Shown piece by piece: positions 18,111-32,855 of a stretch of 42,962 nt of DNA. Position 1 is the first letter of the stretch, and each line of letters opens with the position of its first letter. The position numbers and the translations under genes were made by a program. Origin of the DNA: a virus. The notes beneath the pieces are model-generated. The model ran no database searches and was not told the DNA's origin. It saw only the letters and a list, made by a program, of their open reading frames with translations. Location of the stretch: the IMG/VR virus record IMGVR_UViG_3300010354_000181, positions 1 to 42,962 of that record; one strand, given 5' to 3'.

Positions 18111-18153
18111 GTTCTCCTCTCTAAGAACAGGTTCAGTATATCAAACCCCGGGT
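18111..18153 (-). promoter_or_regulatory. Palindrome promoter with 5' hairpin leader
   Basis: On the minus strand: ACCCGGGGTT (18153-18144), TGA, TATACT -10 (18140-18135), six bases, then the hairpin GTTCTTAGAGAGGAGAAC (18128-18111). GTTCT pairs with AGAAC and GAGAGG sits in the loop. Transcription would start at or next to the hairpin. Confidence 0.75.
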
Positions 18154-18163
18154 GGGTATTCAA

Positions 18164-18604
18164 CTAGGCGGCGTGAGTCGCCTCGAACTTGACCTCCGGG
18201 CGGACCACCCCGAGCCTCTTGAGGCTCTTGTCGATGATGTCCTTGGCGATGTCATGATTAGGACCGTACTCGACCGAGTAAGCGACCCAAGCGAATCCGT
18301 ATCCATCTACATATTGACCGATGTAGACATATCGAACATCTGTTCGAACAGCATGGGCAGAGAACTCTTCGAATGATTTGAAACTCTGAGCGACCTCCGA
18401 TGGATTGCCATAAGTTCCGGTCTTGCTTGGTCTGCCGAAAAGACTTGAGCGATTGCCAAGGGCAATGAGGCGCTTGGCTTCCTTCTCGCCATAGTTGAGC
18501 GCGAGTTGAACACCGACCCCTTGTGGGTATCCGTCAAAATGATTGTAGATTGACGAGATGGACCCATCCTTGTTCTTGATTCCGATTAGTGACCTTGTAG
18601 CCAT
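18164..18604 (-). CDS. Conserved phage protein (MATRSLIGI family)
   Basis: 146 residues. MATRSLIGIKNKDGSISSIY, then NHFDGYPQGVG and a SSLFG segment are hallmarks of a family found widely in phages, without assigned function. The start is supported by the family and by GGGAGGAAA upstream. It is downstream of two small genes led by the promoter at 19200-19219. Confidence 0.75.
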   Translation of the reverse strand: MATRSLIGIKNKDGSISSIYNHFDGYPQGVGVQLALNYGEKEAKRLIALGNRSSLFGRPSKTGTYGNPSEVAQSFKSFEEFSAHAVRTDVRYVYIGQYVDGYGFAWVAYSVEYGPNHDIAKDIIDKSLKRLGVVRPEVKFEATHAA

Positions 18605-18619
18605 TTTTTATTTCCTCCC

Positions 18620-19000
18620 TTAGTGTCCGGTTGAGGCATGAACAGGTTGTCCATCCCAAAACCATCCGTTTGTGAATGAGTTGATTCTGATAGCGGGCTT
18701 GCCGTCGTAACCCTCTTTGATTCGATGAATCGTGATTGGAGCCGGGACCTTATCGATTTCGCCGGTCTCGCGATTGCGTAACTCACGGACCAAAGGCTCA
18801 CCATTAGAAACTGTTGTCCAATAGTCGCCATTTCCATAATCGGCATATTCGCGCTTTTGCCCGGTCTCTTGGACCCATACAGATGAAGCCGAAACACGAA
18901 CTACCTTGAAGAACTCGACATTGGTTTGGTCGTATCCCCAAGATGTGTAGAAGATGTCGCCGACTTTAGGCGCGACCTTTTCGATTGTTGCTGTTGTCAT
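18620..19000 (-). CDS. Hypothetical phage protein
   Basis: 126 residues, beta-rich, with a start region KVAPKVGDIFYTSWGYDQTN and VEFFKVVRVSASSVWVQE, suggesting a small barrel. It overlaps the upstream gene by 4 bp (ATGA). No named domain recognised. Confidence 0.65.
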   Translation of the reverse strand: MTTATIEKVAPKVGDIFYTSWGYDQTNVEFFKVVRVSASSVWVQETGQKREYADYGNGDYWTTVSNGEPLVRELRNRETGEIDKVPAPITIHRIKEGYDGKPAIRINSFTNGWFWDGQPVHASTGH

Positions 19001-19173
19001 TGAGCGACCTCCTCAGTTTCGTTTACGAAGATTGCTTGGATTCTGTACTGACCGCCCGAGAACGCAGTCGCGGCTATCGCGAAGGTTTCGGCTTCTTTCT
19101 TGGTCTTGAAGTAATGAGTTCCGTTAGCATTATTAGCGGCTCTACGAACCTCGACTTGAAACACCTTTTTCAT
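18997..19173 (-). CDS. Small protein, paralogue of the gene at 19684-19854
   Basis: 58 residues starting MKKVFQVEVRRAANNANGTH. It is clearly homologous to the gene at 19684-19854: both share the MxKVF(Q/K)VE start, NGTHYF, a T-x-FAI-x-ATAFSGG block and IFVNE. The start at 19173 has AGGAGGAC upstream in the loop and stem of the leader hairpin. Function unknown. Confidence 0.7.
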   Translation of the reverse strand: MKKVFQVEVRRAANNANGTHYFKTKKEAETFAIAATAFSGGQYRIQAIFVNETEEVAQ

Positions 19174-19177
19174 TTCC

Positions 19178-19219
19178 GTCCTCCTCTCAGGACAACCCAA
19201 GTATATCACAACCCGGGTT
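19178..19219 (-). promoter_or_regulatory. Palindrome promoter with 5' hairpin leader
   Basis: AACCCGGGTT (19219-19210), GTGA, TATACT (19205-19200), six bases, then GTCCTGAGAGGAGGAC (19193-19178) with GTCCT/AGGAC pairing. The palindrome overlaps the stop codon of the upstream gene. Confidence 0.8.
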
Positions 19220-19457
19220 AGTTATCTTTGATTTCTAACGCTTGAACAACTCGTATCTGTTTCAACCAATAGTGTCTACGATTGCTTTGTTGTTTCGCTT
19301 CGACCGAGCGATAGTTTTGATGAAACGAACAAGCAAGTTTTCCCGTATCTTCTTCTTGAGTGATGATTGCCCAAGTGAAGTAGTTCGATGTCTTTCGCTC
19401 GAAAGTATAAAGTTTTGACCCGACTTCAACAGTCGCTCTGTAAGTCCTCTTAGTCAT
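19218..19457 (-). CDS. Hypothetical small protein
   Basis: 79 residues, basic (MTKRTYRATVEVGSKLYTFE; HYWLKQIRVVQALEIKDN). Own promoter at 19483-19502, with a hairpin leader containing GAGAGGGGG. Its stop codon lies within the next promoter. No domain recognised. Confidence 0.6.
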   Translation of the reverse strand: MTKRTYRATVEVGSKLYTFERKTSNYFTWAIITQEEDTGKLACSFHQNYRSVEAKQQSNRRHYWLKQIRVVQALEIKDN

Positions 19458-19460
19458 TCT

Positions 19461-19502
19461 GTCCCCCTCTCAGGACACCCCAAGTTTACCACAACCCGGG
19501 TT
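19461..19502 (-). promoter_or_regulatory. Palindrome promoter with 5' hairpin leader
   Basis: AACCCGGGTT (19502-19493), GTGG, TAAACT (19488-19483), six bases, then GTCCTGAGAGGGGGAC (19476-19461). TGTCC/GGACA pair around the Shine-Dalgarno. Confidence 0.75.
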
Positions 19503-19504
19503 AG

Positions 19505-19687
19505 TTATTCTTCTTTTTCTTCAATCTTTCCTACAAACTCGATGGCTCTGATATAGGCTCGGTTGTAAGCCAAGTAATCTTCAATCTCGCCAATCTTCTC
19601 GAACTCGACTTCAACTTCTTCAATCTGACCGTACGGGTCATTAGCGCTTCTACGCTCGACCTCTTTTCTAACTTTTGCTGTTATCAC
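19505..19687 (-). CDS. Small acidic protein
   Basis: 60 residues, rich in Glu (EVEVEFEKIGEIEDYL; GKIEEKEE). Its ATG overlaps the stop of the upstream paralogue gene (ATGA). Function unknown. Confidence 0.6.
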   Translation of the reverse strand: MITAKVRKEVERRSANDPYGQIEEVEVEFEKIGEIEDYLAYNRAYIRAIEFVGKIEEKEE

Positions 19688-19854
19688 TTTGCGACCTCCT
19701 CGTTCACGAAGATTTCTTGAATGTTGTATAGACCACCGCTGAAAGCAGTTGCGACAATCGCAAAATCTGTCGCTTGTTCGTTGGTCTCAAAGTAATGAGT
19801 TCCATTGACTTTGGCACCCGCTTTTTTGATTTCGACCTTGAAAACCTTTCTCAT
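19684..19854 (-). CDS. Small protein, paralogue of the gene at 18997-19173
   Basis: 56 residues starting MRKVFKVEIKKAGAKVNGTH. Same family as the 58-residue gene at 18997-19173, and both have the same promoter type. The pair probably arose by duplication of promoter plus gene. The start at 19854 has AAAGGGGGAC upstream. Confidence 0.7.
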   Translation of the reverse strand: MRKVFKVEIKKAGAKVNGTHYFETNEQATDFAIVATAFSGGLYNIQEIFVNEEVAK

Positions 19855-19858
19855 TTTC

Positions 19859-19899
19859 GTCCCCCTTTCGGACACCATCAGTATAACACAACCGGGGTT
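19859..19899 (-). promoter_or_regulatory. Palindrome promoter with 5' hairpin leader
   Basis: AACCCCGGTT (19899-19890), GTGT, TATACT (19885-19880), six bases, then GTCCGAAAGGGGGAC (19873-19859) with GTCC/GGAC pairing. It is the left arm of a divergent region; the LexA-type promoter lies on the other strand. Confidence 0.75.
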
Positions 19900-19913
19900 A
19901 GAAATCATCCCGA

Positions 19914-19962
19914 TTGTGCGTACATTGTGCGTACAGATTTAGTACCAAATGTGGTACCAAAT
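19914..19962. repeat. Two pairs of short direct repeats in a divergent intergenic region
   Basis: TTGTGCGTACA occurs twice in tandem (19914-19924, 19925-19935). GTACCAAAT occurs twice (19942-19950, 19954-19962), 12 bp apart. They fill the gap between the minus promoter and the LexA box and may be operator sites. Confidence 0.6.
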
Positions 19963-19967
19963 ATGGC

Positions 19968-19989
19968 TCGAACAGGTGTTCGATACACT
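19968..19989 (+). promoter_or_regulatory. LexA (SOS) box and leaderless-type promoter
   Basis: TCGAACAGGTGTTCGA (19968-19983) is a perfect match to the Gram-positive/actinobacterial LexA consensus CGAAC-N4-GTTCG. A TACACT -10 (TANNNT) follows at 19984-19989, and the ATG at 19996 is six bases further, so transcription would start at the start codon. Host LexA would repress it until DNA damage. Confidence 0.7.
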
Positions 19990-19995
19990 TCTGCC

Positions 19996-20427
19996 ATGAC
20001 CCTTACTTCAGCAGTCCACACACTTATCAAGGCGACATGCCCAACGGCGACTCAGGATGTAAGGGCTAATCTCGAGAACCGAGCCAAAGCCATAGAAACG
20101 GCTCTGTACGGTCCTCTGAACCCCGGAGAGCCGAACGATGAGTATTGGACCCGGCTCGGGGCTGAATGGGGTGTTAGCGCCGAGGAAGCCAAGAAACAGC
20201 GGTGCGGGAACTGTGCCGCCTTTATCCGGACCCCGGAGATGCTCGAATGTATCAATGCCGGTCTAGCCATAGGCGGAACCGGGACTGAATCTTGGGATAC
20301 GGTCGAGGCGGGCGAACTTGGATATTGCGAGGCTTTTGATTTCAAATGTGCTTCGGCTCGGACCTGCCGTGCTTGGATTGCGGGCGGACCAATCACAAAA
20401 GCCGGAGTCAAAAAAGGATTGAAGTGA
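19996..20427 (+). CDS. Cys-rich conserved phage protein under a LexA box
   Basis: 143 residues. The C-terminal half has CGNCAAFIRTPEMLECI, GYCEAFDFKC and RTCRAWIAGGPI, a pattern of conserved Cys seen in a phage family I recall from aquatic phages but cannot name. The Cys set suggests metal binding. The start at 19996 is chosen over an in-frame ATG at 19963 because the latter lies upstream of the LexA box and -10. First of three plus-strand genes here. Confidence 0.7.
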   Translation: MTLTSAVHTLIKATCPTATQDVRANLENRAKAIETALYGPLNPGEPNDEYWTRLGAEWGVSAEEAKKQRCGNCAAFIRTPEMLECINAGLAIGGTGTESWDTVEAGELGYCEAFDFKCASARTCRAWIAGGPITKAGVKKGLK

Positions 20428-20567
20428 GTAGCGGTCAATATAAAAAACACCATGGATGGCACTCGCGTCGCATGATTATTCGCGACGGTATGGTTGTGCT
20501 TCTCAATAAAGATGGGTCAGAGAGAGAGCGCCGTCCAATGGAAAAGAAGAATGACAAAAACAAATGA
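20424..20567 (+). CDS. Short basic protein
   Basis: 47 residues from a GTG overlapping the previous stop (GTGA). Sequence HHGWHSRRMIIRDGMVVLLN followed by ERERRPMEKKNDKNK. Overlap on both sides supports coupling in a three-gene operon. Function unknown. Confidence 0.55.
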   Translation: MSSGQYKKHHGWHSRRMIIRDGMVVLLNKDGSERERRPMEKKNDKNK

Positions 20568-20760
20568 CATTGTTGCTTTCAATGAACAATGCGATAAATG
20601 TAGCGCTCGCGCTTTAGTCGCGGCTTATTTCTTTGCGGGAGAACTTTACTTTTGTTTACATCATTACAAAGAGTTGAAGATAGGGGAGAAGGCGTATCTC
20701 CTTCAGTTCGTGGACGAACTAGAACCGACCGAAACCACGCCCATTCATGCCTTCGAGTAA
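20551..20760 (+). CDS. Small zinc-binding protein (DUF7455-like)
   Basis: 69 residues. CDKCSARALVAAYF then GELYFCLHHYKEL matches the C-x-x-C...C-x-H-H pattern of DUF7455-type actinobacterial and phage proteins. The ATG at 20551 overlaps the previous gene by 17 bp and follows AAAAGAAGA. Function unknown. Confidence 0.7.
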   Translation: MTKTNDIVAFNEQCDKCSARALVAAYFFAGELYFCLHHYKELKIGEKAYLLQFVDELEPTETTPIHAFE

Positions 20761-20812
20761 TCCCAACACCTAACGGTCAATATCTAACAACCGTCGTTTG
20801 TGTTTGTGGACT

Positions 20813-21193
20813 TCAGAGAGTTCCTCTACCTAACAAAGAGAATCCATCGGCTCTATCGTAGATAAGCCATTCGGCTGATTGGACCTCAAAAGTTTTTTGA
20901 AGAGCCGAGAGAACAATGTCTTTATTTAGTTCCCCGCAGGTATACAAATCAAACTGAAGTAATCCCGGCTCTTCTTCATCCCATATATGAAACGCGCAAT
21001 GGCTGGTCTCAATCATTACAGCGGCGGTGAGTCCGCGGTTACCGGGCTTATCGACATAACTGGCGAATGGTCCCTTGATGATTTTCATTTCAACCGCACT
21101 AATCAGGTCGCGTAAAAACTCGATGCCTTTCTCCTCATCCTTGATTGGATTACGGATTTTGGCGATGACCATGATGTGCTTATGAAATACCAT
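20813..21193 (-). CDS. speD-like: S-adenosylmethionine decarboxylase (SpeD)-like protein
   Basis: 126 residues, the length of small class 1b proenzymes. The core ETSHCAFHIW...FDLYTCG aligns with AESHLTIHTW...VDVFTCG of bacterial SpeD. Ser64 (would become the pyruvoyl group), His69 and Cys86 are kept; the residue before Ser is Thr rather than Glu. SpeD self-cleaves and makes decarboxylated AdoMet for spermidine; some homologues have become ornithine or arginine decarboxylases, so the substrate is open. AAGGAG precedes the ATG. It is in an operon with a small membrane protein and 0.9 kb from an HDAC-family enzyme. Confidence 0.75.
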   Translation of the reverse strand: MVFHKHIMVIAKIRNPIKDEEKGIEFLRDLISAVEMKIIKGPFASYVDKPGNRGLTAAVMIETSHCAFHIWDEEEPGLLQFDLYTCGELNKDIVLSALQKTFEVQSAEWLIYDRADGFSLLGRGTL

Positions 21194-21218
21194 TGCTGGC
21201 TCCTTAGAGTTCGGGTTT

Positions 21219-21407
21219 CTATCTAAAACTCTGAATCAGAGTCTCAGCGACAGAAGCCAAAACTATCAGCACAAAACTGCCAAGCAAAGTAATACCCCAC
21301 AGGTATCGAAGTTCAGGAAACTTCGCCGGTGGTCGTCTCTCTTTGAACTTTGGCTTGTTGATTATCTGACTGAACTTTTGGTCAATGACCTCTTGGTTCT
21401 CTTTCAT
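21219..21407 (-). CDS. Small membrane protein upstream of speD-like
   Basis: 62 residues. A basic N-terminal half (KPKFKERRPPAKFPE) and one transmembrane helix (about 36-57, YLWGITLLGSFVLIVLASVA). It is the first gene of an operon with speD-like and has the palindrome-type promoter. Function unknown. Confidence 0.65.
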   Translation of the reverse strand: MKENQEVIDQKFSQIINKPKFKERRPPAKFPELRYLWGITLLGSFVLIVLASVAETLIQSFR

Positions 21408-21445
21408 ACATTCCTCTCATGTTGTATGGATATACAACTAGGGTT
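21408..21445 (-). promoter_or_regulatory. Palindrome promoter variant with small hairpin leader
   Basis: AACCCTAGTT (21445-21436) followed by GTATATCCATAC, which offers TATATC or TATCCA as -10. The leader ACATGAGAGGAATGT (21422-21408) pairs ACAT/ATGT around the Shine-Dalgarno, as in the other leaders. Confidence 0.55.
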
Positions 21446-21468
21446 GAGGATACAGCATGAAGGGGCTG

Positions 21469-22047
21469 TCAAGCAAACTGAGTCTCGACACAGATTGGAA
21501 GGCTCGAGTAAGCGTCCCATTTAGTCGCGATTGTGATTGCCTTCTTGATGATTCGTTCTGCCTTCTTTGGGTCATCTGTACAGTTCAAGATTCCAAGTCC
21601 AAGCATTGCGCCTAATGCGACATCGCCACCGGAGCCACCGATATAAACATTGCGTCGGTCCCGGTCCCATGAATAATCCTCAGCGATTGGATATAAAACA
21701 CCATTGACTGAGATGATGAATGATGAGTCCTGAAACGCCGCGGCTCCATCATCTTTCGCATCGAAACCTTCAGAGATAAAAAACGAACGCAAAGACGGAA
21801 TCAGTTTGCGAGTCATAAACTTATCGAGGCTTTCGATATTGGTAGACATTGGCGGCTTTGGTGGATTCCATCCAAACTGCGCCAAGTTACCACCGCGAGA
21901 TGCGCCGGATACAGCGATTAGGTAAGAACCGTTCTCAACAATCTTTGGAGTTGATAAATCGAAAACTCGACCGCCTTCATCCGTTGCTCTTGAGTCCGCT
22001 CCAATAATCGCCCATCCATCTCCTTGAAAAGCGGCAAGAGTTGTCAT
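21469..22047 (-). CDS. Proteasome beta/HslV-like Ntn hydrolase
   Basis: 192 residues. After Met removal the protein starts with Thr-Thr. The following GWAIIGADSRATD places Asp at 17, as in proteasome beta subunits, and TPK places Lys at 34 (33 in the family). GGSGGDVALGAM matches the family's Ser/Gly loop. No propeptide is present, as in HslV. Actinobacteria own 20S proteasomes, so this may be a phage-specific protease or an acyl-transferring relative. AGGAG precedes the ATG. Confidence 0.75.
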   Translation of the reverse strand: MTTLAAFQGDGWAIIGADSRATDEGGRVFDLSTPKIVENGSYLIAVSGASRGGNLAQFGWNPPKPPMSTNIESLDKFMTRKLIPSLRSFFISEGFDAKDDGAAAFQDSSFIISVNGVLYPIAEDYSWDRDRRNVYIGGSGGDVALGAMLGLGILNCTDDPKKAERIIKKAITIATKWDAYSSLPICVETQFA

Positions 22048-22083
22048 CGGGTCTCCTAGGGATTAGATACCCAATAGTAACCT

Positions 22084-23007
22084 CTAAGGCTTCACAACCT
22101 CGGTAGGTAAAGCCATGAGTCCAAGCGCGGCGCTCGCCCATAGGTCCGGAGTTTCCGTATCAGGCTGGTAGCCGCCGGCTCCGCCGAGCAGAATCGGGTG
22201 GTCAAAGTATTGCTCTCGAATCATTCGCATGGATTGGAAGTAGCCATCCTTGGTGTACTCGAGGGATGAGAGCGGGTCATTCTTGAGACCGTCAGCACCG
22301 CAAGCAACAAAAATCATAGTTGGCTGAAACTCTTGGCAAGCCTCGAGAAACATCTCGGTAGCAGAGAGCAAACCTTCGTCACCGGTATTAGAAGCAAGCG
22401 GGAAGTTGTAAGCGCGGTTGCGATAGTCGCTGAGTAAACCGGTACCCGGAAAGATGCCGTACTCATGGACCGAGAAAGTCAAAACATTCTTGTTGGACTT
22501 GAGCAATAGTTCGGTGCCGTCACCATGGTGAGCATCGCAATCGAAGATAGCAACACGGTGACCGTATTCGTTAGTTGCTTTGGTAGCGGCAACAGCGAAA
22601 TCATTGAATACGCAAAAGCCGCTGGAATGGTCACGCATCGCGTGATGCTTTGCGCCGGGAAAGTGAACAGCCAATCGCGTCTTGAAATCAATCAAAGTAT
22701 CGAGAGCAGTCAGAGTACCGCCAACAAATAACTTGGCTAGTTCGCCGAGGTCATGTCGTTGCCCGTCCCATTCTCCGGATTCACCGCGGATGGTGACATC
22801 GAAAACATATTCCATATCGTGAACGAGATGTAAGTCCTCAGTTGATGGAGCAACAGGTTCTATCTCGTAAACATTGAGGCGACGCTTTTGACCGGCAATA
22901 ACTAGATTGTTGCGAGCATGGAGAAATCTTCGCCCTTGAGTTGGATGCTTAGGGTCGAAAACCCAATCGGCATACTGTGGCGAATGAACAATGATTGCGT
23001 GTTCCAT
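22084..23007 (-). CDS. HDAC / acetylpolyamine amidohydrolase-family enzyme
   Basis: 307 residues, full length for the family. Catalytic His pair in GAKHHAMRDHSSGFC (His121, His122), zinc ligands in DCDAHHGDGTE (Asp158, His160) and CGADGLKNDP (Asp239), and the transition-state Tyr in GGAGGY (Tyr280). The family removes acetyl groups from acetylated lysines or acetylpolyamines. With speD-like nearby, a polyamine substrate is attractive; host histone-like proteins are an alternative. GAGAGGAG precedes the ATG and it has its own promoter. Confidence 0.88.
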   Translation of the reverse strand: MEHAIIVHSPQYADWVFDPKHPTQGRRFLHARNNLVIAGQKRRLNVYEIEPVAPSTEDLHLVHDMEYVFDVTIRGESGEWDGQRHDLGELAKLFVGGTLTALDTLIDFKTRLAVHFPGAKHHAMRDHSSGFCVFNDFAVAATKATNEYGHRVAIFDCDAHHGDGTELLLKSNKNVLTFSVHEYGIFPGTGLLSDYRNRAYNFPLASNTGDEGLLSATEMFLEACQEFQPTMIFVACGADGLKNDPLSSLEYTKDGYFQSMRMIREQYFDHPILLGGAGGYQPDTETPDLWASAALGLMALPTEVVKP

Positions 23008-23023
23008 CTATATCTCCTCTCTC

Positions 23024-23040
23024 AATATAAACCCTAGTTT
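23024..23040 (-). promoter_or_regulatory. Palindrome promoter variant of the deacetylase gene
   Basis: AAACTAGGGTTT (23040-23029) merges into TATATT (23029-23024). The next bases, through GAGAGAGGAG, can fold TATAT with ATATA. The -10 and hairpin overlap, so the exact start is uncertain. Confidence 0.5.
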
Positions 23041-23068
23041 ATACTAAATCAAACATAACTACAAATCC

Positions 23069-23647
23069 TTACGATAGCCACTCCTTCAAAGTATCAGCCG
23101 GGTAGCCAATCTCTTCGAGCCACGCCCGGACATTCTCTTCATCCTTTTTCAAACAAAAGACATCCACAGTTTGAGAAAAGACATTGGAGGTAAGTTCCAT
23201 CAAAGCGTAGAACGGATACGGAGTTGGATAGTTACCTTCGCCAATCTCATTCAAGAAGTTGTTGAATCGGATTTTGCGTTGGTGATATTCGTCAGCCCAA
23301 CCCGTAGTCCAACCGGATGCGAGGACCGCGACATTATCGAGATTCTTTACAGTCTCGTAATGCCCACGCCAACCATCGGTCTTTTGATACAAGCGACCTT
23401 TGAAATCGCCGGTATGGAGTTCACCTAGGAAATCCGGAATCTCCGCGTCATCATCGTAGATTGTGTAATCACCTATGCGAACGCGGTCAATCTCACCACC
23501 ATGAATCTTGACGAGCGTTGAGGCGCTTTGAGTATCCTCATTCTCGCAGTCATAGCAGAGCGCTTGATTCTTGACATTCGAATAGGTCAGTTCGTCCTCG
23601 TTGAAATCTTGCTCGCAAGAAACGCACTTCTCTTTAGTTGCGGTCAT
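23069..23647 (-). CDS. Zinc-ribbon-containing hypothetical protein
   Basis: 192 residues. The N-terminus has two CxxC pairs (KCVSCEQDF, then ALCYDCENED), a zinc knuckle. The remainder is acidic and contains TIYDDDAEIPDFLGEL and AVLASGWTTGWADEYHQRKI. The start overlaps the upstream gene by 4 bp. Function unknown. Confidence 0.65.
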   Translation of the reverse strand: MTATKEKCVSCEQDFNEDELTYSNVKNQALCYDCENEDTQSASTLVKIHGGEIDRVRIGDYTIYDDDAEIPDFLGELHTGDFKGRLYQKTDGWRGHYETVKNLDNVAVLASGWTTGWADEYHQRKIRFNNFLNEIGEGNYPTPYPFYALMELTSNVFSQTVDVFCLKKDEENVRAWLEEIGYPADTLKEWLS

Positions 23648-23862: not shown

Positions 23863-23877
23863 GCTTTCATCTCCTCT

Positions 23878-24222
23878 CTAAAGAAATCTCTCGGTTGATG
23901 TAGCAAACGAAACATTGACGAAGCAACTTGCTTTGTAAGCAACCTCGCCTACCTCTTCACAATAGACATCCTTTTGAACGCCTTTGTAAAACACCTTGCC
24001 ACCACGAATAAACTCGCGGCGAACGGTGTAGGTATCGTTGAATCCAAGAGTGATTGCTACTCGGTAGCCCTTGCCTACTGGCAAGATGACTTCAACGCAC
24101 TCGCCCTCTTCGTTGGTGATTGCGGTCCAGCGTCCACCGGAAATCGCAAACACATTTATAATGCCGATTTGATTGAGCAGTTCTTTTGGATTGAACGCTC
24201 GGCATTGATACTGGTTCTTCAT
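23878..24222 (-). CDS. Hypothetical beta-rich protein
   Basis: 114 residues, mostly strands (INVFAISGGRWTAITN; GYRVAITLGFNDTYTVRREF). First gene of a three-gene operon with the promoter at 24248-24267. No domain recognised. Confidence 0.6.
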   Translation of the reverse strand: MKNQYQCRAFNPKELLNQIGIINVFAISGGRWTAITNEEGECVEVILPVGKGYRVAITLGFNDTYTVRREFIRGGKVFYKGVQKDVYCEEVGEVAYKASCFVNVSFATSTERFL

Positions 24223-24225
24223 TTT

Positions 24226-24267
24226 GTCTCCTCTCTAAGACAATCTGAGTATAACACAACCGGGGTT
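24226..24267 (-). promoter_or_regulatory. Palindrome promoter with 5' hairpin leader
   Basis: AACCCCGGTT (24267-24258), GTGT, TATACT (24253-24248), then GTCTTAGAGAGGAGAC (24241-24226). The stem extends to six pairs, TTGTCT with AGACAA, holding the Shine-Dalgarno in the loop. Confidence 0.8.
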
Positions 24268-24385
24268 AGGAACGCTCCCCGTTACTACGGTTTAGGACGA
24301 TATATTCATTGAGGCAACCATCGCAGAGATAAGTCTCAGAATCGATTTGATTCTTGGCTACCGCATCGCAGTTGGCACAAGTCAT
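24266..24385 (-). CDS. Short zinc-ribbon protein
   Basis: 39 residues with two CxxC pairs, MTCANCDAV and YLCDGCLNEY, a complete zinc ribbon. The ATG overlaps the upstream stop (ATGA) and the TAA touches the next promoter's palindrome. Probably a small regulator or adaptor. Confidence 0.7.
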   Translation of the reverse strand: MTCANCDAVAKNQIDSETYLCDGCLNEYIVLNRSNGERS

Positions 24386-24780
24386 GCTTTCACCTTCTCC
24401 GTGACCGAGAAAACCGCACCGATTCCGTACTCGCCGGGAAGGTATTTGATTTCGGCATCTTCAGCCTTGACCCAACCGAAGTCGGCGCAAACATAAGTCT
24501 GACCCTCGATTTCGATTTCGTCACCGATTGATAGCGATGTGTGAGTTCTGTCCGAAGCCAATCTTGCTTCGATGACTTTCCACAAGTAAACCTCAAACGC
24601 CGTACCGCCAAAGTCGGCTAGTTCGCTTTGAAGATTAGTTGCTTTGTAAATCGCATTGAGCAATAAAGGATATTTGTCAGCAGGGATTTTGTAATCAAGA
24701 ATGTCGAACTCGACGCTTGATACAAAACGACCTTGTTCGATTCTGTTACCGAACGCCTTCCATGTCACTTTGACTTTCAT
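24382..24780 (-). CDS. Hypothetical protein
   Basis: 132 residues. KVKVTWKAFGNRIEQGRFVS, then LSIGDEIEIEGQTYVCADFG suggest a small beta domain in the C-terminal half. It heads an operon with the zinc-ribbon gene. Promoter with hairpin at 24783-24826. Function unknown. Confidence 0.6.
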   Translation of the reverse strand: MKVKVTWKAFGNRIEQGRFVSSVEFDILDYKIPADKYPLLLNAIYKATNLQSELADFGGTAFEVYLWKVIEARLASDRTHTSLSIGDEIEIEGQTYVCADFGWVKAEDAEIKYLPGEYGIGAVFSVTEKVKA

Positions 24781-24782
24781 TT

Positions 24783-24826
24783 GTTCTCCTCTCTAAGAAC
24801 AATCCGAGTATATCACAACCCGGGTT
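24783..24826 (-). promoter_or_regulatory. Palindrome promoter with 5' hairpin leader (best example)
   Basis: The core AACCCGGGTTGTGATATACT occupies 24826-24807. Six bases later comes GTTCTTAGAGAGGAGAAC (24800-24783), identical to the leader at 18111-18128 though the rest differs. The stem extends to seven pairs, TTGTTCT with AGAACAA. Confidence 0.85.
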
Positions 24827-25260: not shown

Positions 25261-25279
25261 AGTATACCAAACCCGGGTT
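25261..25279 (-). promoter_or_regulatory. Palindrome promoter without leader hairpin
   Basis: AACCCGGGTT (25279-25270), TGG, TATACT (25266-25261). Its leader (GAGGCTGAAAGGAGGTC) does not form the hairpin. It diverges from the plus promoter at 25378-25396. Confidence 0.75.
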
Positions 25280-26268: not shown

Positions 26269-26383
26269 TCAAAATCGCGTAGCCGACTATTCCTTTCGCA
26301 GTTCCGTCAAGAACAATCCAAGCAACAAACATTCCGAGCAAAGTCCATAGTTGCCCAATCATGTCATTGATGAAGTCTTTCAT
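26216..26383 (-). CDS. Small two-helix membrane protein
   Basis: 55 residues with two hydrophobic helices (about 9-27, LWTLLGMFVAWIVLDG, and 31-49, GIVGYAILITLGVWALTY) and a basic end. Its ATG overlaps the stop of the upstream lectin-like gene (TAATG), so the two are coupled. It could anchor or help export the secreted protein; that is inference. Confidence 0.65.
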   Translation of the reverse strand: MKDFINDMIGQLWTLLGMFVAWIVLDGTAKGIVGYAILITLGVWALTYPLRRSKE

Positions 26384-28656
26384 TACGGTCTCCTATATCC
26401 GATACCGCCGATTGCGGTAGCCATTGTAGTTGTTGCGATATTGCCAACGATGGTCGCGGCAATGATTGTCTTAGTTGCTTCTTCTCTTTCTTGCGGAGAC
26501 ATATCAGCGCCAAGATTTCCAATCGCAAAAATAAGTTGTGCCGGTGATTCAAAAATCGCAGAAAGAATCTCAGCCGGAGAAGCGAGCAGTTCTAAAGCCG
26601 CGGCAATCTCAGCGGTGATGATGACAGGATTGCCGTCCTCATCTTCTCGAGTCTCGACCGGTGTTTGTGGTGGTAGGTCCTCAAGGGTCAATCCCGCTTC
26701 GGCGAGCGCACTAACCGGGACCGCCGGCGCATCCTCGAACTGAGTTAGGACCGCCTCGACAACAATCTCTTTCTCAGCCTCGGTCATCTTTCCGTCGGCT
26801 AAAACATCCTTGACTAAATCCTTGACCTCTTCAGCGGTGACGGTTCCATCTTGTACTATGTCCGCCAAAGTATCGGAGGCATCAGATGGTTCTTGTGACG
26901 GATTACTTGGCTCTTGTGATTGCGACGGTTGCGGTTCTGTATCTGACTTATCTGAATCGTCGTCATCCGTTGTCGTCGGTTCATCATCAGGATTTTTCGA
27001 ATCGTCTGATTCAGTCGGCTCAGGTTCTACTGGTTGTGGCGTGGATTCTTCTTGTGTTGGTTCGGGACTAGGTTCATCCGATGGTTGTGGTTCAGGTGTT
27101 TGATTTGACGGGTCGGTTTCCGTTGGGCTTTCGGACGGTTGAGGCTCCGGTTCTTGAGAAGGCTCAGGAGTTGGCGATGGCTCAGGGTCGGGAGAAGGTG
27201 ACGCTCCGGGACTTGGACTTGGCTCAGGTTCAGGGGACGGAGTGGGAGTGGGTTGAGGAGTCGGAACGGGAGTCGGTGATTGCTCCGGGGTTGGTGTTGG
27301 ACTCGGAACAGGGATTGGTGTTGGATTCGGCTCGGGCTGTGGAACGGGTGTCGGAGAAGGAGTAAGAGATGGCTGAGGAGAAGGTGTGGGTTCAGGCGTG
27401 GACGGCGAGGGTTCCGGGGTCGGTTGCGGTTGAGCGCTCTGTGTTGGCTCAGGTTGCGGGCTTGGAGAACTTGTTGCCGTTGGTGCCGATGTTGGTTCAG
27501 GTGAAGGAGAAGGAGTGGGAGTTGGCTCCGTCGTACTTGATGTCGGCTCCGGCGTTGGCGAAGGTTGAGGAGTCACTTGAGGTGTTGCCTCCGGCGAAGG
27601 AGTTGGAGTAGCGTCGCCATATTCAAGGATTACTTGTAGGCGCTTTGCGATTCCATGGCAAGGGTCACTAAAAATACTATTGACCGCTTGAATCACAGCA
27701 TTGTTTTCACCAAGAAAAATCTTTGAAACTTTTACTATCGAGTTCGCCGCATGGCATTGAGCATTGATGACAAAATCATTAGGCAGACCATAACTAGCAA
27801 AAATCACCGAAGTAAAAATCTTTCCAATCGGAGCGGATAGATTCAAAGATTCGTTTTCGTTTGCCGTACCATTTACGCGATTGGAAGGGGGCGTCGATGG
27901 CGCAGGTGTTGTGGTTTCTGTTTGGGTTGGGCTTGGGCTTGGCGCTGGACTTTGTGTTGGTGAAGGTGATGCTTCGCTCGGTTGAGGAGAAGGTGTTGTC
28001 GTTGGAGTCGGCTCGGGTGATGGAGCGCTTGAATCTGTTGGAGTCGGAGTTGCGCTGGCAGAGGGCGAAGGCTCAGGCGTTGGAGTCGGACTTGGAGAGG
28101 GCGAATCTGAAGGCGTCGGAGAAGGCGAAGCAGATGGTTCAGGAGATACGGTCGCAGTCGGAGTATCAGATGTCGGAGAAGGCGAAGGCTCAGGCGTTGG
28201 CGAAGGGGTGGGGGTGGGTGTTGGGATTGGAGCAGGAGAACTCACCGAAATCGTAAAGATAGGTCCGTACCATCCCGCCCAAAAACCGTTATCGATTCCG
28301 GATAGATTGATTGTTACTTGACCGGAGACGGTCGCACTTACACTTGTTTGTTCAATCGTATTTCCACTAAAACTTTGACCATTGATTGAGACGCTCCAAC
28401 TATCAGCAATCGGAGTACAACTACCAATACAGTTCGCGATTGTGTTATTGATTGAAACCGTTACCGTCGAACCATCGCTAACCGTAGTTAGATAAGTCGC
28501 GCTTCCACCTCGATAATCAAACTGAATCGAGTCGCCGGAGACATTGCCATTGACCACCGATTGCCATGAGGCATCGGCGCTCGCTGAATCCGACATGGGC
28601 AAGATGCTCCAAAAGAGGATAAAGCACGAAACAACTAAAACGCGCAAAGTACGCAA
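26383..28656 (-). CDS. Secreted Pro/Thr-rich protein with SUEL-type lectin domain
   Basis: 757 residues from TTG 28656, or 769 from GTG 28692. A signal peptide ([17 protein letters not shown], then SASADA) leads to a beta domain (nt 28250-28570). Next come a P-T-P/S-rich linker (27880-28240), a domain at about 27612-27860 with [32 protein letters not shown], the pattern of SUEL/galactose-lectin domains, a second P/S/E-rich linker (26890-27612), and a helical acidic end with DGTVTAEEV and [13 protein letters not shown] precedes TTG 28656 by 10 nt. An exposed glycan-binding role is inferred, perhaps superinfection exclusion. Confidence 0.75.
26890..27612 (-). repeat. Low-complexity Pro/Ser/Thr/Glu-coding repeats
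   Basis: Degenerate short repeats encoding P-T-P, P-S-P and P-E-P units form the long linker of the lectin-like protein. A second block lies at 27880-28240. They create long spurious open frames on the plus strand. Confidence 0.85.
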
Positions 28657-28702
28657 TACGGACAAACTCCTGCTTGGGGTCACGCAGGACACGATTGGGG
28701 TT

Positions 28703-28708
28703 ATTGTA
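28703..28708 (-). promoter_or_regulatory. -10 box for the lectin-like gene
   Basis: TACAAT on the minus strand, preceded by GCCGGG and followed by AACCCC. Layout resembles the other GG-abutting -10 sites (7925, 14349, 38680). GTG 28692 lies 10 nt downstream, TTG 28656 lies 46 nt downstream with a Shine-Dalgarno. Confidence 0.45.
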
Positions 28709-28728
28709 CCCGGCTCTTCTTTCTGCTA

Positions 28729-28744
28729 AACTGGGGTTGTAAAT
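28729..28744 (+). promoter_or_regulatory. Palindrome promoter variant, divergent from the lectin-like gene
   Basis: AACTGGGGTT (28729-28738) followed by GTAAAT (28739-28744) as a weak -10. GAGAGGAG lies 5 nt before the GTG at 28758. No hairpin leader. Confidence 0.5.
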
Positions 28745-28757
28745 GAGAGGAGTCGAT

Positions 28758-29057
28758 GTGACAGTCGAGATGTTCGAGATTGAAAAACCAAGTTATGAGC
28801 AGATTGAAAAAAATCGCAAACTTGGAAATACCACTACAAAATATAACGACGAATGTTTTGTTTGTGAACGCCCCATGAAAACAACCGGCATGGAAAAAGG
28901 CACTTGGGTTCACTTATCGTGGGCGACCGGAATGATTATGAACATTGAACAAGCCAATAGCGAAGAGGGCGAAAAGCAATCGCAAGGTTTCTTCCCTGTC
29001 GGTTCTGATTGCGTCAAAGCAATCCCAAAGAGATTCGTTTACAAGGCGCCCAAATGA
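28758..29057 (+). CDS. Small Cys-containing phage protein
   Basis: 99 residues from a GTG five bases after GAGAGGAG; an ATG at 28743 lies upstream of that site. CFVCERPM, then WVHLSWATG, then VGSDCVKAI suggests a zinc site of Cys and His. It resembles small phage proteins without known function. The stop overlaps the next ATG. Confidence 0.7.
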   Translation: MTVEMFEIEKPSYEQIEKNRKLGNTTTKYNDECFVCERPMKTTGMEKGTWVHLSWATGMIMNIEQANSEEGEKQSQGFFPVGSDCVKAIPKRFVYKAPK

Positions 29058-29695
29058 CAATCAACCTTGACGAGATTCCTGATTTCGCGAAGATGGCTTT
29101 CGAGAAACTACACCCGGACCTTGAGCCGTATGTCGAAGAAGGTTCATTCGGTCCGATGCTCCGGCATCCACTTGTGTATCAAGTGCCGCTAACAATCCCG
29201 GGTTACGCCAATCGTTACTATCAACAAAAACTCGAGGATACAAAAAAAGCGCTTGAGTCCAAGAACTTCAAAAGTTATGTGTGGCTACATGAGCGTCCTT
29301 ATCGCTTACACGCTTTCGAAGAGATTCAAGAACACCTAACTGACCGTGAGTATTGGTCGCTCTTAGGTGCGATATGGGTCGATACAGAAAATGCGTGGGC
29401 GAATGTTGAGCAATGGCGCGAGTTCTTCTCTTCAGATAGAGGCGAGCGCGAATGGCTCATGGATTGGGATGAGCAGATGGCTTATGCCGGATTACCCGAG
29501 ATGATTACGGTCTATCGCGGTTATCAACCCGGACTCAATGAGAATGGAATCTCATGGACCATAAAGCGAGAAGTTGCTGAGAAGTTTGCGACACGATTAG
29601 GCAAAAAGGGCAAGGTGCTTGAAATGCGTGTCAAAAGAGAGAGAATCGTTGCCGTCTTTACTGGACGGAATGAATACGAGGTGGTGATTATATGA
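29054..29695 (+). CDS. ADP-ribosyltransferase-fold protein
   Basis: 213 residues. The C-terminal 90 residues show the R-S-E pattern of ADP-ribosyltransferases: VYRGYQPG, then GISWTIKREVAEKFATR, then GRNEYEVVI. The N-terminal part is helical and specific to phages. It could modify host proteins early in infection. Located among small accessory genes, overlapping both neighbours by ATGA. Confidence 0.65.
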   Translation: MTINLDEIPDFAKMAFEKLHPDLEPYVEEGSFGPMLRHPLVYQVPLTIPGYANRYYQQKLEDTKKALESKNFKSYVWLHERPYRLHAFEEIQEHLTDREYWSLLGAIWVDTENAWANVEQWREFFSSDRGEREWLMDWDEQMAYAGLPEMITVYRGYQPGLNENGISWTIKREVAEKFATRLGKKGKVLEMRVKRERIVAVFTGRNEYEVVII

Positions 29696-29829
29696 AGTGT
29701 TACAACTGCGGTAGTGAATATCGATTGACACTAATCAAAGGAAAGTTCTACTGTTTCGGATGTGAGGCGGATGCTTCACTCGAGGCGGTGGGGTTAGTTA
29801 GACCAATCAAAGAAAAGAGGACAGCATGA
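29692..29829 (+). CDS. Short zinc-ribbon protein
   Basis: 45 residues: MKCYNCGSEYRL, then FYCFGCEADASLEAV, two CxxC pairs. Coupled by ATGA to both neighbours. Function unknown. Confidence 0.65.
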   Translation: MKCYNCGSEYRLTLIKGKFYCFGCEADASLEAVGLVRPIKEKRTA

Positions 29830-29993
29830 CTGAGGACATGGGCTGGATTGAATCGCGCCTTAGCAAGCGCGGAGTTCGCTTGACCGCCAAAGGTCGTAAG
29901 TGGGCAGATAACACCGAGGCGATTCTCTTCTATGCGGTGATACTGGTTGCTTTCGGCATTGCCGGGTCAATAGAGACCGGGAAGTGGTTCTAG
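29826..29993 (+). CDS. Small membrane protein
   Basis: 55 residues. A basic N-terminal segment (SRLSKRGVRLTAKGRKW) and one transmembrane helix (AILFYAVILVAFGIAGS). Coupled to the zinc-ribbon gene by ATGA; the TAG shares a base with the next GTG. Confidence 0.6.
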   Translation: MTEDMGWIESRLSKRGVRLTAKGRKWADNTEAILFYAVILVAFGIAGSIETGKWF

Positions 29994-30187
29994 TGAGTCT
30001 CTTATCCCGGGTACGCAGAAAAGAGCCGCTACGGGTCTCTGAAGGCTCCCTACGGGCTATTCGTAGGGCAGAGCGTGAGAGAGCGCTCGCTGAAGAAGCC
30101 GACAGGCTCCGGGCTAGGTTGCTTTCCAAACCCGGGTTTGATATACTTGGATTGTCCGAGAGGAGGACACATGACTCAAGTGATTGA
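29993..30187 (+). CDS. Short Arg/Glu-rich helical protein (tentative)
   Basis: 64 residues from a GTG sharing one base with the previous stop. Highly charged (RAIRRAERERALAEEADR). It runs through the next promoter and 17 bp into the next gene, which argues for caution. It could be a small DNA-associated protein. Confidence 0.4.
   Translation: MSLLSRVRRKEPLRVSEGSLRAIRRAERERALAEEADRLRARLLSKPGFDILGLSERRTHDSSD
30119..30168 (+). promoter_or_regulatory. Palindrome promoter with 5' hairpin leader
   Basis: TTGCTT (30119-30124) at a 17-bp spacing is a possible -35. AACCCGGGTT (30129-30138), TGA, TATACT (30142-30147), six bases, then GTCCGAGAGGAGGAC (30154-30168) with TGTCC/GGACA pairing. ATG follows at 30171. 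Confidence 0.8.
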
Positions 30188-30584
30188 GAAGAAAACACTT
30201 GGCAAGCGCGAGTGCGCTCGCATTTACAAAGAGGCTGACGCCGCTGGTTGTGCCGCCGCTGAAGCCGCGGTCCCTACACCAATAGTTGTCGGGACTCCAA
30301 CTACGCCACTTGGCAATGACATCGATTACACAAAGCAAACTTACTTTGTGGCTGACGGTCTTTGCGGATTCGCATGGGTAAAGATATTTCCTGCCCGTGG
30401 CGCGTTCGTGACCTATTTGAAGAAAGCCGGAATCGGAAGCACTAACGGTTACGAAGGTGGTTACGATATTTGGGTTCGCGGATACGGTCAGTCTGTAACT
30501 AGAAAAGAGGCTTACGCTCAAGCGTTCGCCAAGGTCTTGAATGGTTACGGAATCAAGGCTTACGGACAAAGTAGGTTGGACTAA
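30171..30584 (+). CDS. Conserved phage protein of unknown function
   Basis: 137 residues. Ala-rich start (KRECARIYKEADAAGCAAAE), then P-x-P-I-V-V-G-T-P, a DGLCGFAWVKIFPARGAF block, and RKEAYAQAFAKVLNGYGI-KAYGQSRLD. The family is widespread in phages, with no known role. The start at 30171 is set by the leader hairpin and GAGGAGGAC. Confidence 0.75.
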   Translation: MTQVIEKKTLGKRECARIYKEADAAGCAAAEAAVPTPIVVGTPTTPLGNDIDYTKQTYFVADGLCGFAWVKIFPARGAFVTYLKKAGIGSTNGYEGGYDIWVRGYGQSVTRKEAYAQAFAKVLNGYGIKAYGQSRLD

Positions 30585-30586
30585 GG

Positions 30587-30822
30587 ATTCAGTCACCGGC
30601 ATCGACTCTCTTCCGTTGAGGACATGAGACCCGCCGGTGATTGGATAAGGGGCGCTCCGCGATTCGCTTCTTAGATTCGCGGGGCGTTCGCATAATCGCT
30701 TTTACCCTTTCGCGGTTGTGCGAGTCAGGTACCATTCCTTCCGGGTACCCGAGTCGGTGGCGTTGTAGCGCGGTTGCGCGTCCGTCCTCTCTCTAGCGTA
30801 ATCATTTTGCTCCGCCACCGAC
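30587..30822 (+). ncRNA. Highly structured RNA element (five helices), novel candidate
   Basis: No gene fits here, yet five strong helices lie in series. H1: 30587-30600 with 30633-30646 (14 pairs, 2 G-U). H2: 30650-30662 with 30677-30689 (13 pairs, 3 G-U). H3: 30688-30699 with 30712-30723 (12 pairs, 2 G-U). H4: GGTACC 30728-30733 with 30744-30749. H5: GTCGGTGGCG 30753-30762 with 30813-30822, containing a GCGC-GGTT-GCGC hairpin. The wobbles are G-U on the plus strand and would be mismatches on the minus strand, so the RNA is plus. It may be cleaved from the upstream mRNA. I do not recognise it as tRNA, tmRNA or a known riboswitch. Confidence 0.65.
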
Positions 30823-30837
30823 GCCCACAAAATATCC

Positions 30838-30985
30838 TTGACAGTCATTCATTTTGATGATGTACCCTAAATCCCAAGGTTCGCAAAACGCCTTACTTGT
30901 AAAAGCGGGGTCGGTCCGATACCGACACCATCGAAGTGCCGAAGCCATCGGCGCAAGAGATGTCTGCTCCGACCATCGGAGGAAT
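30838..30985 (+). promoter_or_regulatory. Promoter and folded leader of the transglycosylase-like gene
   Basis: TTGACA (30838-30843) and TACCCT (30863-30868), spacer 19. The roughly 110-nt leader has hairpins at 30910-30926 (GTCGGT/ACCGAC), 30936-30954 (seven pairs) and 30967-30981 (CTCCGA/TCGGAG). The last one traps the GGAGG Shine-Dalgarno just before the ATG, so translation may be switched by leader folding. Confidence 0.5.
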
Positions 30986-31450
30986 ATGCGATTCTATGAA
31001 AAGTTATTACAGCCAATCCCGGTTATCTTCTTCATCGTAGGACTGATAGTTCTCAATCCGCTCCACATTCCACCTGACCCTAAAGCCTTTGCTGAAGAGT
31101 CTGAAGTGGTAGTTGAAATAAAGCCAATCTTTATTGAGCGGACACCGGAAGCGGCTAAGAAGTTTGCCCGGGACCTCATGCCTAGTTGGGGCTGGAAGTC
31201 TGAAGCGCAATGGGATTGTCTCGAAGTGCTTTGGACCAAAGAATCTAACTGGCGACCCGAGGCTTACAACAGAAAACCGGTTTATCAAAACGGCGAGAAA
31301 CTCAATGCCGGCGGTATCCCGCAGATTCTCGGATTGAATCCAAAGATTTCAGTCGAGGAACAAATCTTCCGTGGCTTCACCTATATCGAAAGTCGCTATT
31401 CCAACCCCTGTTCGGCGTGGCGCTTTTGGACTTTGAACGGTTGGTACTAG
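30986..31450 (+). CDS. Transglycosylase-like protein with N-terminal membrane anchor
   Basis: 154 residues. A hydrophobic N-terminus (PVIFFIVGLIVLNPL) acts as signal or anchor. The C-terminal domain has WDCLEVLWTKESNWRPEA with the likely catalytic Glu, then a glycine-rich loop and YIESRY...AWRFWTLNGWY, the pattern of small actinobacterial transglycosylase/Rpf-like modules. It may open peptidoglycan during entry or exit. The ATG at 30986 follows GGAGG. Confidence 0.7.
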   Translation: MRFYEKLLQPIPVIFFIVGLIVLNPLHIPPDPKAFAEESEVVVEIKPIFIERTPEAAKKFARDLMPSWGWKSEAQWDCLEVLWTKESNWRPEAYNRKPVYQNGEKLNAGGIPQILGLNPKISVEEQIFRGFTYIESRYSNPCSAWRFWTLNGWY

Positions 31451-31453
31451 CCT
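31448..31453 (+). promoter_or_regulatory. Leaderless-type -10 box
   Basis: TAGCCT, six bases before the ATG at 31460, with no Shine-Dalgarno. It overlaps the stop codon of the previous gene. Confidence 0.4.
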
Positions 31454-31459
31454 CGCCAC

Positions 31460-31726
31460 ATGGCGAATGAGGAAGAACTAAAACCTTCAGTAATAGACGA
31501 TGCGCTCGCTCAAATCGGGCGCATCGCCTTTATTGAACCTGCTATCTGTACTGGATGGGTACTCGTATCAGAATGGATGGGTGAGGGCGATAAAGATTAT
31601 TGGACACTAACTCTTGCTGATAGTCAAAACCCTGATTGGCGTCATCAAGGATTGATACATCACGCGATAAAAACATGGGAGGATGAGGATGATGTCGGAC
31701 TCAAAGACAAACCGACCAATCAATGA
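31460..31726 (+). CDS. Hypothetical acidic protein (DUF7213-like)
   Basis: 88 residues. The middle (AICTGWVLVSEWMGEGDKDY, then W-T-L-T-L-A-D) and HQGLIHHAIKTW fit a small family common in actinophages. Function unknown. It probably uses a leaderless start. Confidence 0.65.
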   Translation: MANEEELKPSVIDDALAQIGRIAFIEPAICTGWVLVSEWMGEGDKDYWTLTLADSQNPDWRHQGLIHHAIKTWEDEDDVGLKDKPTNQ

Positions 31727-31829
31727 GAGAGAAAAAGAAGATTTATTGAAAGACCTTATCCGTGAGCGTTACGGCGAATGGGCTATCAATAAACAGATTT
31801 CGGTAGAGCAACCAAAAGAATCGCAGTAA
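31689..31829 (+). CDS. Short charged protein
   Basis: 46 residues: NEREKEDLLKDLIRERYGEW, then AINKQISVEQPKESQ. GGGAGG lies upstream of ATGATG. It overlaps the previous gene by 38 bp in another frame. Helical; function unknown. Confidence 0.5.
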   Translation: MMSDSKTNRPINEREKEDLLKDLIRERYGEWAINKQISVEQPKESQ

Positions 31830-31836
31830 ATACAAC

Positions 31837-32220
31837 ATGAGTTTTGATTTCGTAACTGTTGCGCCATGCCGAAACGCAGACCCTTGGCTCTTTGACCAAT
31901 CCAACTTAGATTTAGCGCAACCCGGATTGAGATACTGTAAATCGTGTGTTTTTTGGGATGAGTGTGAATCTCTAGTTGAGCCTCGCAGTAATGCCTACGA
32001 TGGAATAGTTGGCGGTAAGGTATGGAGAAATGGGAAAGTTTTGGCTAGGTTAGACCATGCCTTCCCAAACAGACTTATCGTAGGAGAGGAACTAAAAGAT
32101 GAAGAAACCTCCACAGTTCGAGGGAGCGAGTTGCCATGGGATAGATACGGAGATGTTTTTCCCGCTGGATGGCAAGGGGGGATATACGGCGGAGAATCTG
32201 ATGGCGAAGAGAGTTTGTAA
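31837..32220 (+). CDS. WhiB-like iron-sulfur protein 1 (C-terminus read into next gene)
   Basis: 127 residues. Four Cys (11, 34, 37, 43) fit the C...CxxC-x5-C WhiB cluster, followed by GIVGGKVW (56-63) in place of GVWGG. WhiB proteins hold a 4Fe-4S cluster and act with sigma factor at promoters. A WhiB protein would normally end near residue 75-80; the last 41 residues overlap the second whiB gene by 122 bp in another frame, suggesting loss of an earlier stop. Confidence 0.75.
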   Translation: MSFDFVTVAPCRNADPWLFDQSNLDLAQPGLRYCKSCVFWDECESLVEPRSNAYDGIVGGKVWRNGKVLARLDHAFPNRLIVGEELKDEETSTVRGSELPWDRYGDVFPAGWQGGIYGGESDGEESL

Positions 32221-32374
32221 AACTTGCCCTTGTATTCAAGATTGTCTGACCTATGCGTTACATTACAAAGTCCTCGGAATATGGGGCGGCACAACGATGG
32301 AAGAACGCGAAGTGCTAAGAAAAAAACTAAACATAATCGGACAACCAATATCTAATGAAAGGCACATAGCATGA
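32099..32374 (+). CDS. WhiB-like iron-sulfur protein 2
   Basis: 91 residues with Cys12, Cys40, Cys43 and Cys49 and the canonical GIWGG turn (60-64), then a basic MEEREVLRKK tail. AGGAGAGGAA lies upstream of the ATG. Phage WhiB proteins (for example WhiB of TM4) interfere with host WhiB regulators or redirect phage promoters. The stop overlaps the SSB start (ATGA). Confidence 0.85.
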   Translation: MKKPPQFEGASCHGIDTEMFFPLDGKGGYTAENLMAKRVCKTCPCIQDCLTYALHYKVLGIWGGTTMEEREVLRKKLNIIGQPISNERHIA

Positions 32375-32811
32375 CCACACTAACTATCGCTGGCAATCTT
32401 GCGGCTGACCCGGAGTTGAAGTTCACACCGAATGGAAAAGCCGTCGCATCATTTACTGTCATTAGTTCAAAATCAGTAAAGAAAGATGATGGCACTTGGG
32501 AAAGCACCGATGTCACCGCATGGTCAGTCAAGTGCTGGAATAAACTCGCTGAGAATGTTTGTGAATCTTTGAGCAAGGGTATGAGCGTGATTGTTCAAGG
32601 TTCTGCCGTCCAAGCCTCTTGGGAGGATAAGCAGACCGGACAAAAGAGAAGCAAGATTGAAGTCACCGCTTTCAATGTAGGCGTGGACTTGAAGCGTCAT
32701 TTAGTCAATGTCGTATCCCTAGACCGCAACGCGGAGGGCGATGTCGAGGTCAATCCTTGGACCCAACCATCATGGCAAAAGACACCGGAGGTCGAAGCGT
32801 TCCCCTTCTAA
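32371..32811 (+). CDS. ssb: Single-stranded DNA-binding protein
   Basis: 146 residues. OB-fold core with TIAGNLAADPELKFTPNGKA, VASFTVISS, WSVKCWNKLAENVCESLSKG and VIVQGSAVQASWEDKQTG. The C-terminus (EVEAFPF) is the acidic-aromatic tip used to recruit partners. It supports the replication and recombination genes at 9-14 kb. The stop overlaps the next promoter palindrome. Confidence 0.9.
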   Translation: MTTLTIAGNLAADPELKFTPNGKAVASFTVISSKSVKKDDGTWESTDVTAWSVKCWNKLAENVCESLSKGMSVIVQGSAVQASWEDKQTGQKRSKIEVTAFNVGVDLKRHLVNVVSLDRNAEGDVEVNPWTQPSWQKTPEVEAFPF

Positions 32812-32855
32812 CCCGGGTGTAGTATCATTGGGGTTGAAAATCTCTGAAGGGAGAT
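32810..32855 (+). promoter_or_regulatory. Palindrome promoter with leader hairpin
   Basis: AACCCGGGTG (32810-32819), TAG, TATCAT (32823-32828). The leader has ATCTC/GAGAT (32840-32855) with TGAAGG in the loop, a different stem sequence from all other leaders. Confidence 0.65.

Follow-up and report, generated by a model that had tools for sequence, protein, structure and literature searches.

The IMG/VR virus record analysed here (IMGVR_UViG_3300010354_000181; 42,962 bp, the whole of which is meant by the window) belongs to a lake-type phage and encodes tape measure, ParB-like, large terminase, portal and head morphogenesis proteins. A search for close phage records at the DNA level gave no match, and relatives were detectable at the protein level only. 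The terminase is approximately 53% identical to those of Arthrobacter phages Laroye and Ottawa and 47% identical to that of Microbacterium phage ValentiniPuff, and this relatedness suggests that the host is an actinobacterium. Dispersed through the window are small open reading frames (ORFs) preceded by very short leaders, in which a repeated promoter is followed, at the predicted transcript start, by a hairpin that carries the Shine-Dalgarno (SD) sequence in its loop. These hairpin leaders, the stems of which differ in sequence while preserving their pairing, are the subject of the present analysis.

The same layout recurs at seven clear sites: an AACCC(G/C)GGTT-like element, an extended -10 (TGNTATACT or TAAACT), six nucleotides (nt), a hairpin of 15-18 nt with the SD (GAGAGG) filling its loop, and a start codon 0-4 nt later. 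The promoters make up a family in which a AACCCNNGTT-like element adjoins the extended -10 TGNTATACT, and the small ORFs that they precede have no informative Pfam match above the cut-off. Six of the sites lie on the minus strand. Two of them, at 18111..18128 and 24783..24800, carry the hairpin GTTCT TAGAGAGG AGAAC, with a minimum free energy (MFE) of -5.8 kcal/mol (z = -2.9 at the former), and lie between genes 17625-18107 and 24382-24780 and their respective promoters, CACCCGGGGTTTGATATACT (18135..18154, matching the promoter pattern with two mismatches) and AACCCGGGTTGTGATATACT (24807..24826). AACCCGGGTTGTGATATACT is found again at 19200..19219, upstream of GTCCT GAGAGG AGGAC at 19178..19193 (MFE -7.8, z = -3.0; gene 18997-19173), and AACCCGGGTTGTGGTAAACT (19483..19502) precedes GTCCT GAGAGG GGGAC at 19461..19476, which contains one U-G pair (MFE -7.4; gene 19218-19457). 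The promoter AACCCCGGTTGTGTTATACT occurs twice, at 19880..19899 before GTCC GAAAGGG GGAC at 19859..19873 (MFE -6.0; gene 19684-19854) and at 24248..24267 before GTCT TAGAGAGG AGAC at 24226..24241 (MFE -4.9; gene 23878-24222). On the plus strand, AAACCCGGGTTTGATATACT (30128..30147) is followed by GTCC GAGAGGA GGAC at 30154..30168 (MFE -5.9; gene 30171-30584). The -10 is TAAACT at 19461 and TATACT at the other six sites. A duplication of about 170 bp on the minus strand (repeat D3, 70% identical) links 19019-19188 with 19700-19869. The loci 18997-19193 and 19684-19873, each a gene with its leader, fall in this duplication, and their hairpins are therefore probably paralogous, though stem and loop differ between them.

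A first-pass annotation of the window had listed nine stems with SD-like loops, and all nine are present. It had also placed the stem about six bases after the -10 at seven sites, a distance that is exactly 6 nt in every case. Its further proposal that the mRNA begins with the hairpin agrees with the predicted +1 at these seven sites, and weakly at 21408..21422 (minus strand), where ACAT GAGAGGA ATGT lies 6 nt after TATATC, with a weak promoter (AACCCTAGTTG-TATATC) just upstream, a marginal MFE of -1.1 kcal/mol and gene 21219-21407 downstream. The site at 32840..32855 (plus strand) is different. There the hairpin ATCTC TGAAGG GAGAT (MFE -6.2; gene 32859-33158), which is also found in the relative L145, is genuine but starts 11 nt past the -10 of the promoter-like sequence ACCCGGGTGTAGTATCAT (32811..32828), and would hence not be 5'-terminal. 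Absent from that annotation were promoters of the same type without the hairpin: ACCCGGGTTTGGTATACT at 25261..25278 (minus strand), whose leader from 25260 has no SD-loop hairpin, and two in the structural gene region of the plus strand, ACCGGGGTTGTGTATCCT at 9062..9079 and a promoter-like sequence at 40464..40483 (-10 TATTAT, ending at 40480), whose leaders from 9080 and 40481 lack a +1 hairpin.

Taken together, 8 of the 12 AACCC-type promoters in the window are followed, at the predicted +1, by a stem of 4 bp or more that encloses an SD-like sequence in its loop, whereas shuffling the first 12 nt 2000 times mostly left between 0 and 3 promoters with such a stem (mode 1, maximum 6). At 37 C, the seven clear leaders have MFEs between -4.9 and -7.8 kcal/mol, with z-scores from -2.2 to -3.0 relative to shuffled sequences. 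Their hairpins mostly persist when folded in a context of 60-100 nt, a comparison in which the site at 32840 is not counted.

The evolutionary behavior of these leaders was analyzed in relatives obtained from two sources: IMG/VR contigs, retrieved mainly with a promoter-only pattern that had no hairpin in the query (more than 100 viral contig stretches, among the matches listed), and a terminase homology search (80 loci). From these partial and mutually related contigs at least 122 distinct leaders were extracted by promoter only, so that the hairpin played no part in the choice of leaders. The pattern gave 29 matches in 257 Gb of cellular genomes, scattered over unrelated phyla and at or below chance expectation, and no AACCC-type promoter was found in the 49.9 kb examined of ValentiniPuff. 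In 78 of the 122 distinct leaders, among the matches listed, a stem of 4 bp or more starts exactly six nt past the -10. Pairing at +1 to +4 is thereby selected by construction, and the evidence is consequently limited to other positions, to a contingency table of the two arms and to a swap test. MAFFT alignment of the leaders locks on GAGAGG and misaligns the arms, and pairing was therefore assessed with anchored tables and with arm swaps in place of column-pair counts.

Both point to compensatory change, extending to the relatives the first-pass claim that stem letters differ while pairing is kept. Leaders starting with GTTC have GAAC as their 3' arm in 19 of 38 cases and GGAC, which pairs by wobble, in 9 of 38; those starting with GTCC have GGAC in 25 of 36, GGGC in 9 of 36 and GAAC in none (Fisher 2e-7, for sequences that are related to one another). 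The first-pass annotation had made the loss of pairing in relatives, as often as expected by chance, the observation that would speak against it, and the relatives do not show such a loss. With wobble allowed, 53 of 91 distinct leaders pair at +1, as opposed to 33.7 +/- 2.8 after exchange of the 5' arms among sites, an excess of about 7 standard deviations; with Watson-Crick pairs only, the figures are 32 of 91 and 12.4 +/- 2.7. Within gene families, clear Watson-Crick changes on both sides of the stem were found in 4 of 16, a fifth having been inflated by a one-base register shift. It is therefore base pairing, and not sequence, that the arm-swap test and the contingency table identify as conserved in the stems, which is one of the features expected of a 5'-terminal stabiliser stem-loop. 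Because evolution has retained the pairing while the letters changed, the comparison of sequences indicates that the RNA shape of the leader matters.

The same data locate the predicted transcript start. Pairing stays at the shuffled expectation at -1 (64 observed, 64.9 expected) and -2 (48 and 46.7), shows a small excess at -3 for which one gene family may account, and exceeds expectation at +5, a position outside the stem selection. This boundary, together with the constant distance between -10 and stem, leads us to infer that the transcript starts at the first base of the stem. The same spacing is suggested by three apparently leaderless genes of Laroye (L230; 3268, 24865 and 48289), whose ATG lies exactly six nt past the -10 of an AACCC/ATCCC-type promoter. 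At most sites the initial G pairs with the C that ends the 3' arm, so that a blunt 5' end with no unpaired nt is predicted.

The hairpins are also restricted to promoter-proximal genes. Hairpins with the SD in the loop and five or more Watson-Crick pairs precede 48 of 106 promoter-linked starts, compared with 12 after shuffling; for the remaining 1333 starts the count of 60 is near background (41 after shuffling), and several of these 60 lie behind visibly degenerate copies of the same promoter. The GAGAGG motif follows the same partition, being present in 100 of 106 promoter-linked leaders versus 220 of the 1333 other starts. A different kind of SD-in-loop hairpin, TTTAC TAGGAG GTAAA or TTTAC TAGAGGGG GTAAA, is conserved in several relatives (L022, L093, L101, L113, L119, L152, L160 and others), in front of genes with no visible AACCC-type promoter.

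Other features of the window include a histone-deacetylase-domain protein, unusual in a phage, at 22084-23007 on the minus strand (Pfam Hist_deacetyl, E 7e-58). An inverted repeat, TATAAACTAGGGTTTATA, lies in the leader of its gene; this repeat includes the promoter element AACCCTAGTT in reverse-complement form and recurs before a gene of similar length in relatives L021, L031 and L032. On the same strand, 26383-28692 is a 769-codon open frame of degenerate repeats without a PHROG match.

The cultured Arthrobacter phages offer a broader perspective on these leaders. Ottawa (L235/L237) has repeated promoters of the form AACCCCCGTTAGG-TANNNT, and behind 8 of its 12 promoters of this type lies a stem of 5 bp or more, whose first base is nt 2 or 3 of the predicted transcript. 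Promoter type and the position of the hairpin near the predicted start are thus shared with the studied phage, whereas the Ottawa stems are longer and GC-rich, and the SD follows the hairpin. In Laroye as in Kovu, one leader combines a hairpin close to the presumed start with another, GACT AGGGAG AGTC, whose loop holds the SD and which adjoins the ATG. Since the 5' hairpins of Ottawa do not enclose the SD, it is 5'-terminal pairing that looks like the common trait of the clade, and the SD in the loop like a compact version of it in the clade of the studied phage.

The best reading of these observations, which we hold with moderate confidence, is that the leader protects the 5' end of the transcript while remaining translatable. 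Transcripts from AACCC-type promoters would begin at the predicted +1 with the 15-18 nt hairpin, the paired terminus would hinder 5'-end-dependent decay, and the SD in the loop would keep a very short leader translatable, giving the ribosome access through the loop to a start codon a few nt beyond the hairpin. The pyrophosphohydrolase RppH and 5'-sensing RNases require single-stranded 5' ends (PMC3997798), and this makes protection of the 5' end the most economical function. Several observations weigh against this proposal. The +1 hairpin is missing at three or four of the 12 promoters of the window, and about one third of the relatives' leaders, such as those of the GTACAAGGTCGAGAGAGG type, have no clear hairpin. 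Changes on both sides of the stem were clear in four of the 16 gene families, and the sequences behind the contingency table are related. The Ottawa hairpins leave one or two 5' nt unpaired. Part of the SD lies within the 3' arm, so that the hairpin could reduce initiation, and the conservation of GAGAGG is stronger than protection by itself would require.

The strong conservation of the loop keeps the binding of a regulator in contention. A phage or host RNA-binding protein might recognise the stem and its GAGAGG loop as a translational operator and switch the whole gene set together, and the combination of a near-invariant loop with variable stem letters is what recognition of a loop on a generic stem would produce. 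The genes concerned are, in addition, small and dispersed, with no informative Pfam match. Yet GAGAGG in the loop is in itself a strong SD, the stem (4-6 bp) and loop (5-9 nt) vary in length, no candidate binding protein was identified, and no CsrA was found in the studied record, which may be incomplete. The loops of the Ottawa hairpins differ as well, and the comparison with this phage favours a role at the 5' end over regulator binding. We thus regard an operator as rather unlikely, and are more doubtful still of a phage or host factor that would recognise the 5'-terminal GAGAGG-loop hairpin and selectively stabilise or translate these phage mRNAs over those of the host. Presentation of the SD might alternatively be the sole function, with the loop preventing the SD from pairing elsewhere and raising initiation, and the 5' position arising as a by-product of short leaders. 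The SD does lie in the loop at all seven clear sites, in hairpins that survive in longer context, but internal genes should then share the hairpin, and these are near background; moreover, Ottawa retains 5' hairpins with the SD outside. On balance, we consider this explanation improbable.

Very little probability attaches to control by temperature or of initiation, in which an SD partly sequestered in the 3' arm would be released by melting of the stem to tune translation in the manner of an RNA thermometer. The AGG of the SD is often inside the 3' arm, and the hairpins weaken with warming, their median energy being about -9.1 kcal/mol at 10 C and -4.1 kcal/mol at 37 C; nonetheless, most SD bases are in the loop, the predicted hairpins are largely folded at 37 C at most sites, and stem stability is not tuned to a single value. 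Least credible is a coincidence between an initial GTYC and the purine-rich flanks of the SD, or a dyad bound by a protein at the DNA level. GTTC and GTCC do predominate at +1 to +4, and for this reason the background of arm swapping is high; even so, observed pairing exceeds it, the tolerance of wobble-compatible combinations and the lack of incompatible GTCC/GAAC follow an RNA rule, and the arms lack the sequence conservation expected of a protein site. These points largely dispose of the explanation, and a DNA-level dyad was rejected.

If 5'-end protection is correct, the element would constitute a compact, repeatedly used leader of about 16 nt that unites such protection with ribosome binding in phages of apparently uncultured hosts. 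Hairpin leaders of this kind also provide predictions of transcript starts from sequence only, and could serve as short expression leaders. The arrangement is not described in the open-access literature searched, and an Rfam search of the studied record returned no family above the gathering score. The nearest described system is that of the SAS/ESAS elements of cluster K mycobacteriophages. These are likewise short repeated elements of an actinophage located a few nt before start codons, which in the case of SAS are those of non-structural genes; their outer arms are complementary (GGG...CCC) around an SD-like AGGAG, and a subset accompanies a recurrent SigA-like promoter with an inverted repeat inside it. 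In contrast to the leaders studied here, SAS is an almost invariant 13-mer, variants of which mostly lose pairing (in Adephagia, Pixie and TM4, the phages examined), and it lies about 13 nt downstream of the expected start of the ESAS promoter, by an estimate made by eye, instead of at +1. In the published account SAS figures as a sequence element, and RNA pairing of the ESAS repeats finds no support there. The studied elements, which read GTYC..GAGAGG..GRAC, do not match the 13-mer GGGATAGGAGCCC, and they resemble SAS somewhat in position without being members of it; they do suggest a structural route by which the unexplained SAS elements might be re-examined.

Regulators such as the MS2 coat protein, CsrA and T4 RegA act at SD-containing sites, where a small hairpin or leader element contains or adjoins the SD or a GGA. 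The loop of the studied phage is GAGAGG(A), and not ANGGA; assignment as a CsrA site was rejected for this reason and for the lack of CsrA in the record. In E. coli and Bacillus, 5'-terminal stabilising stem-loops occur in individual cellular leaders, and the hairpin does not include the SD. The phage leaders are predicted to share with them a hairpin at or beside the 5' end that leaves few or no nt unpaired (Bouvet and Belasco; Emory et al.; reviewed in PMC3997798). The phage differs from them in repeating one design at many promoters and in placing the SD within the loop.

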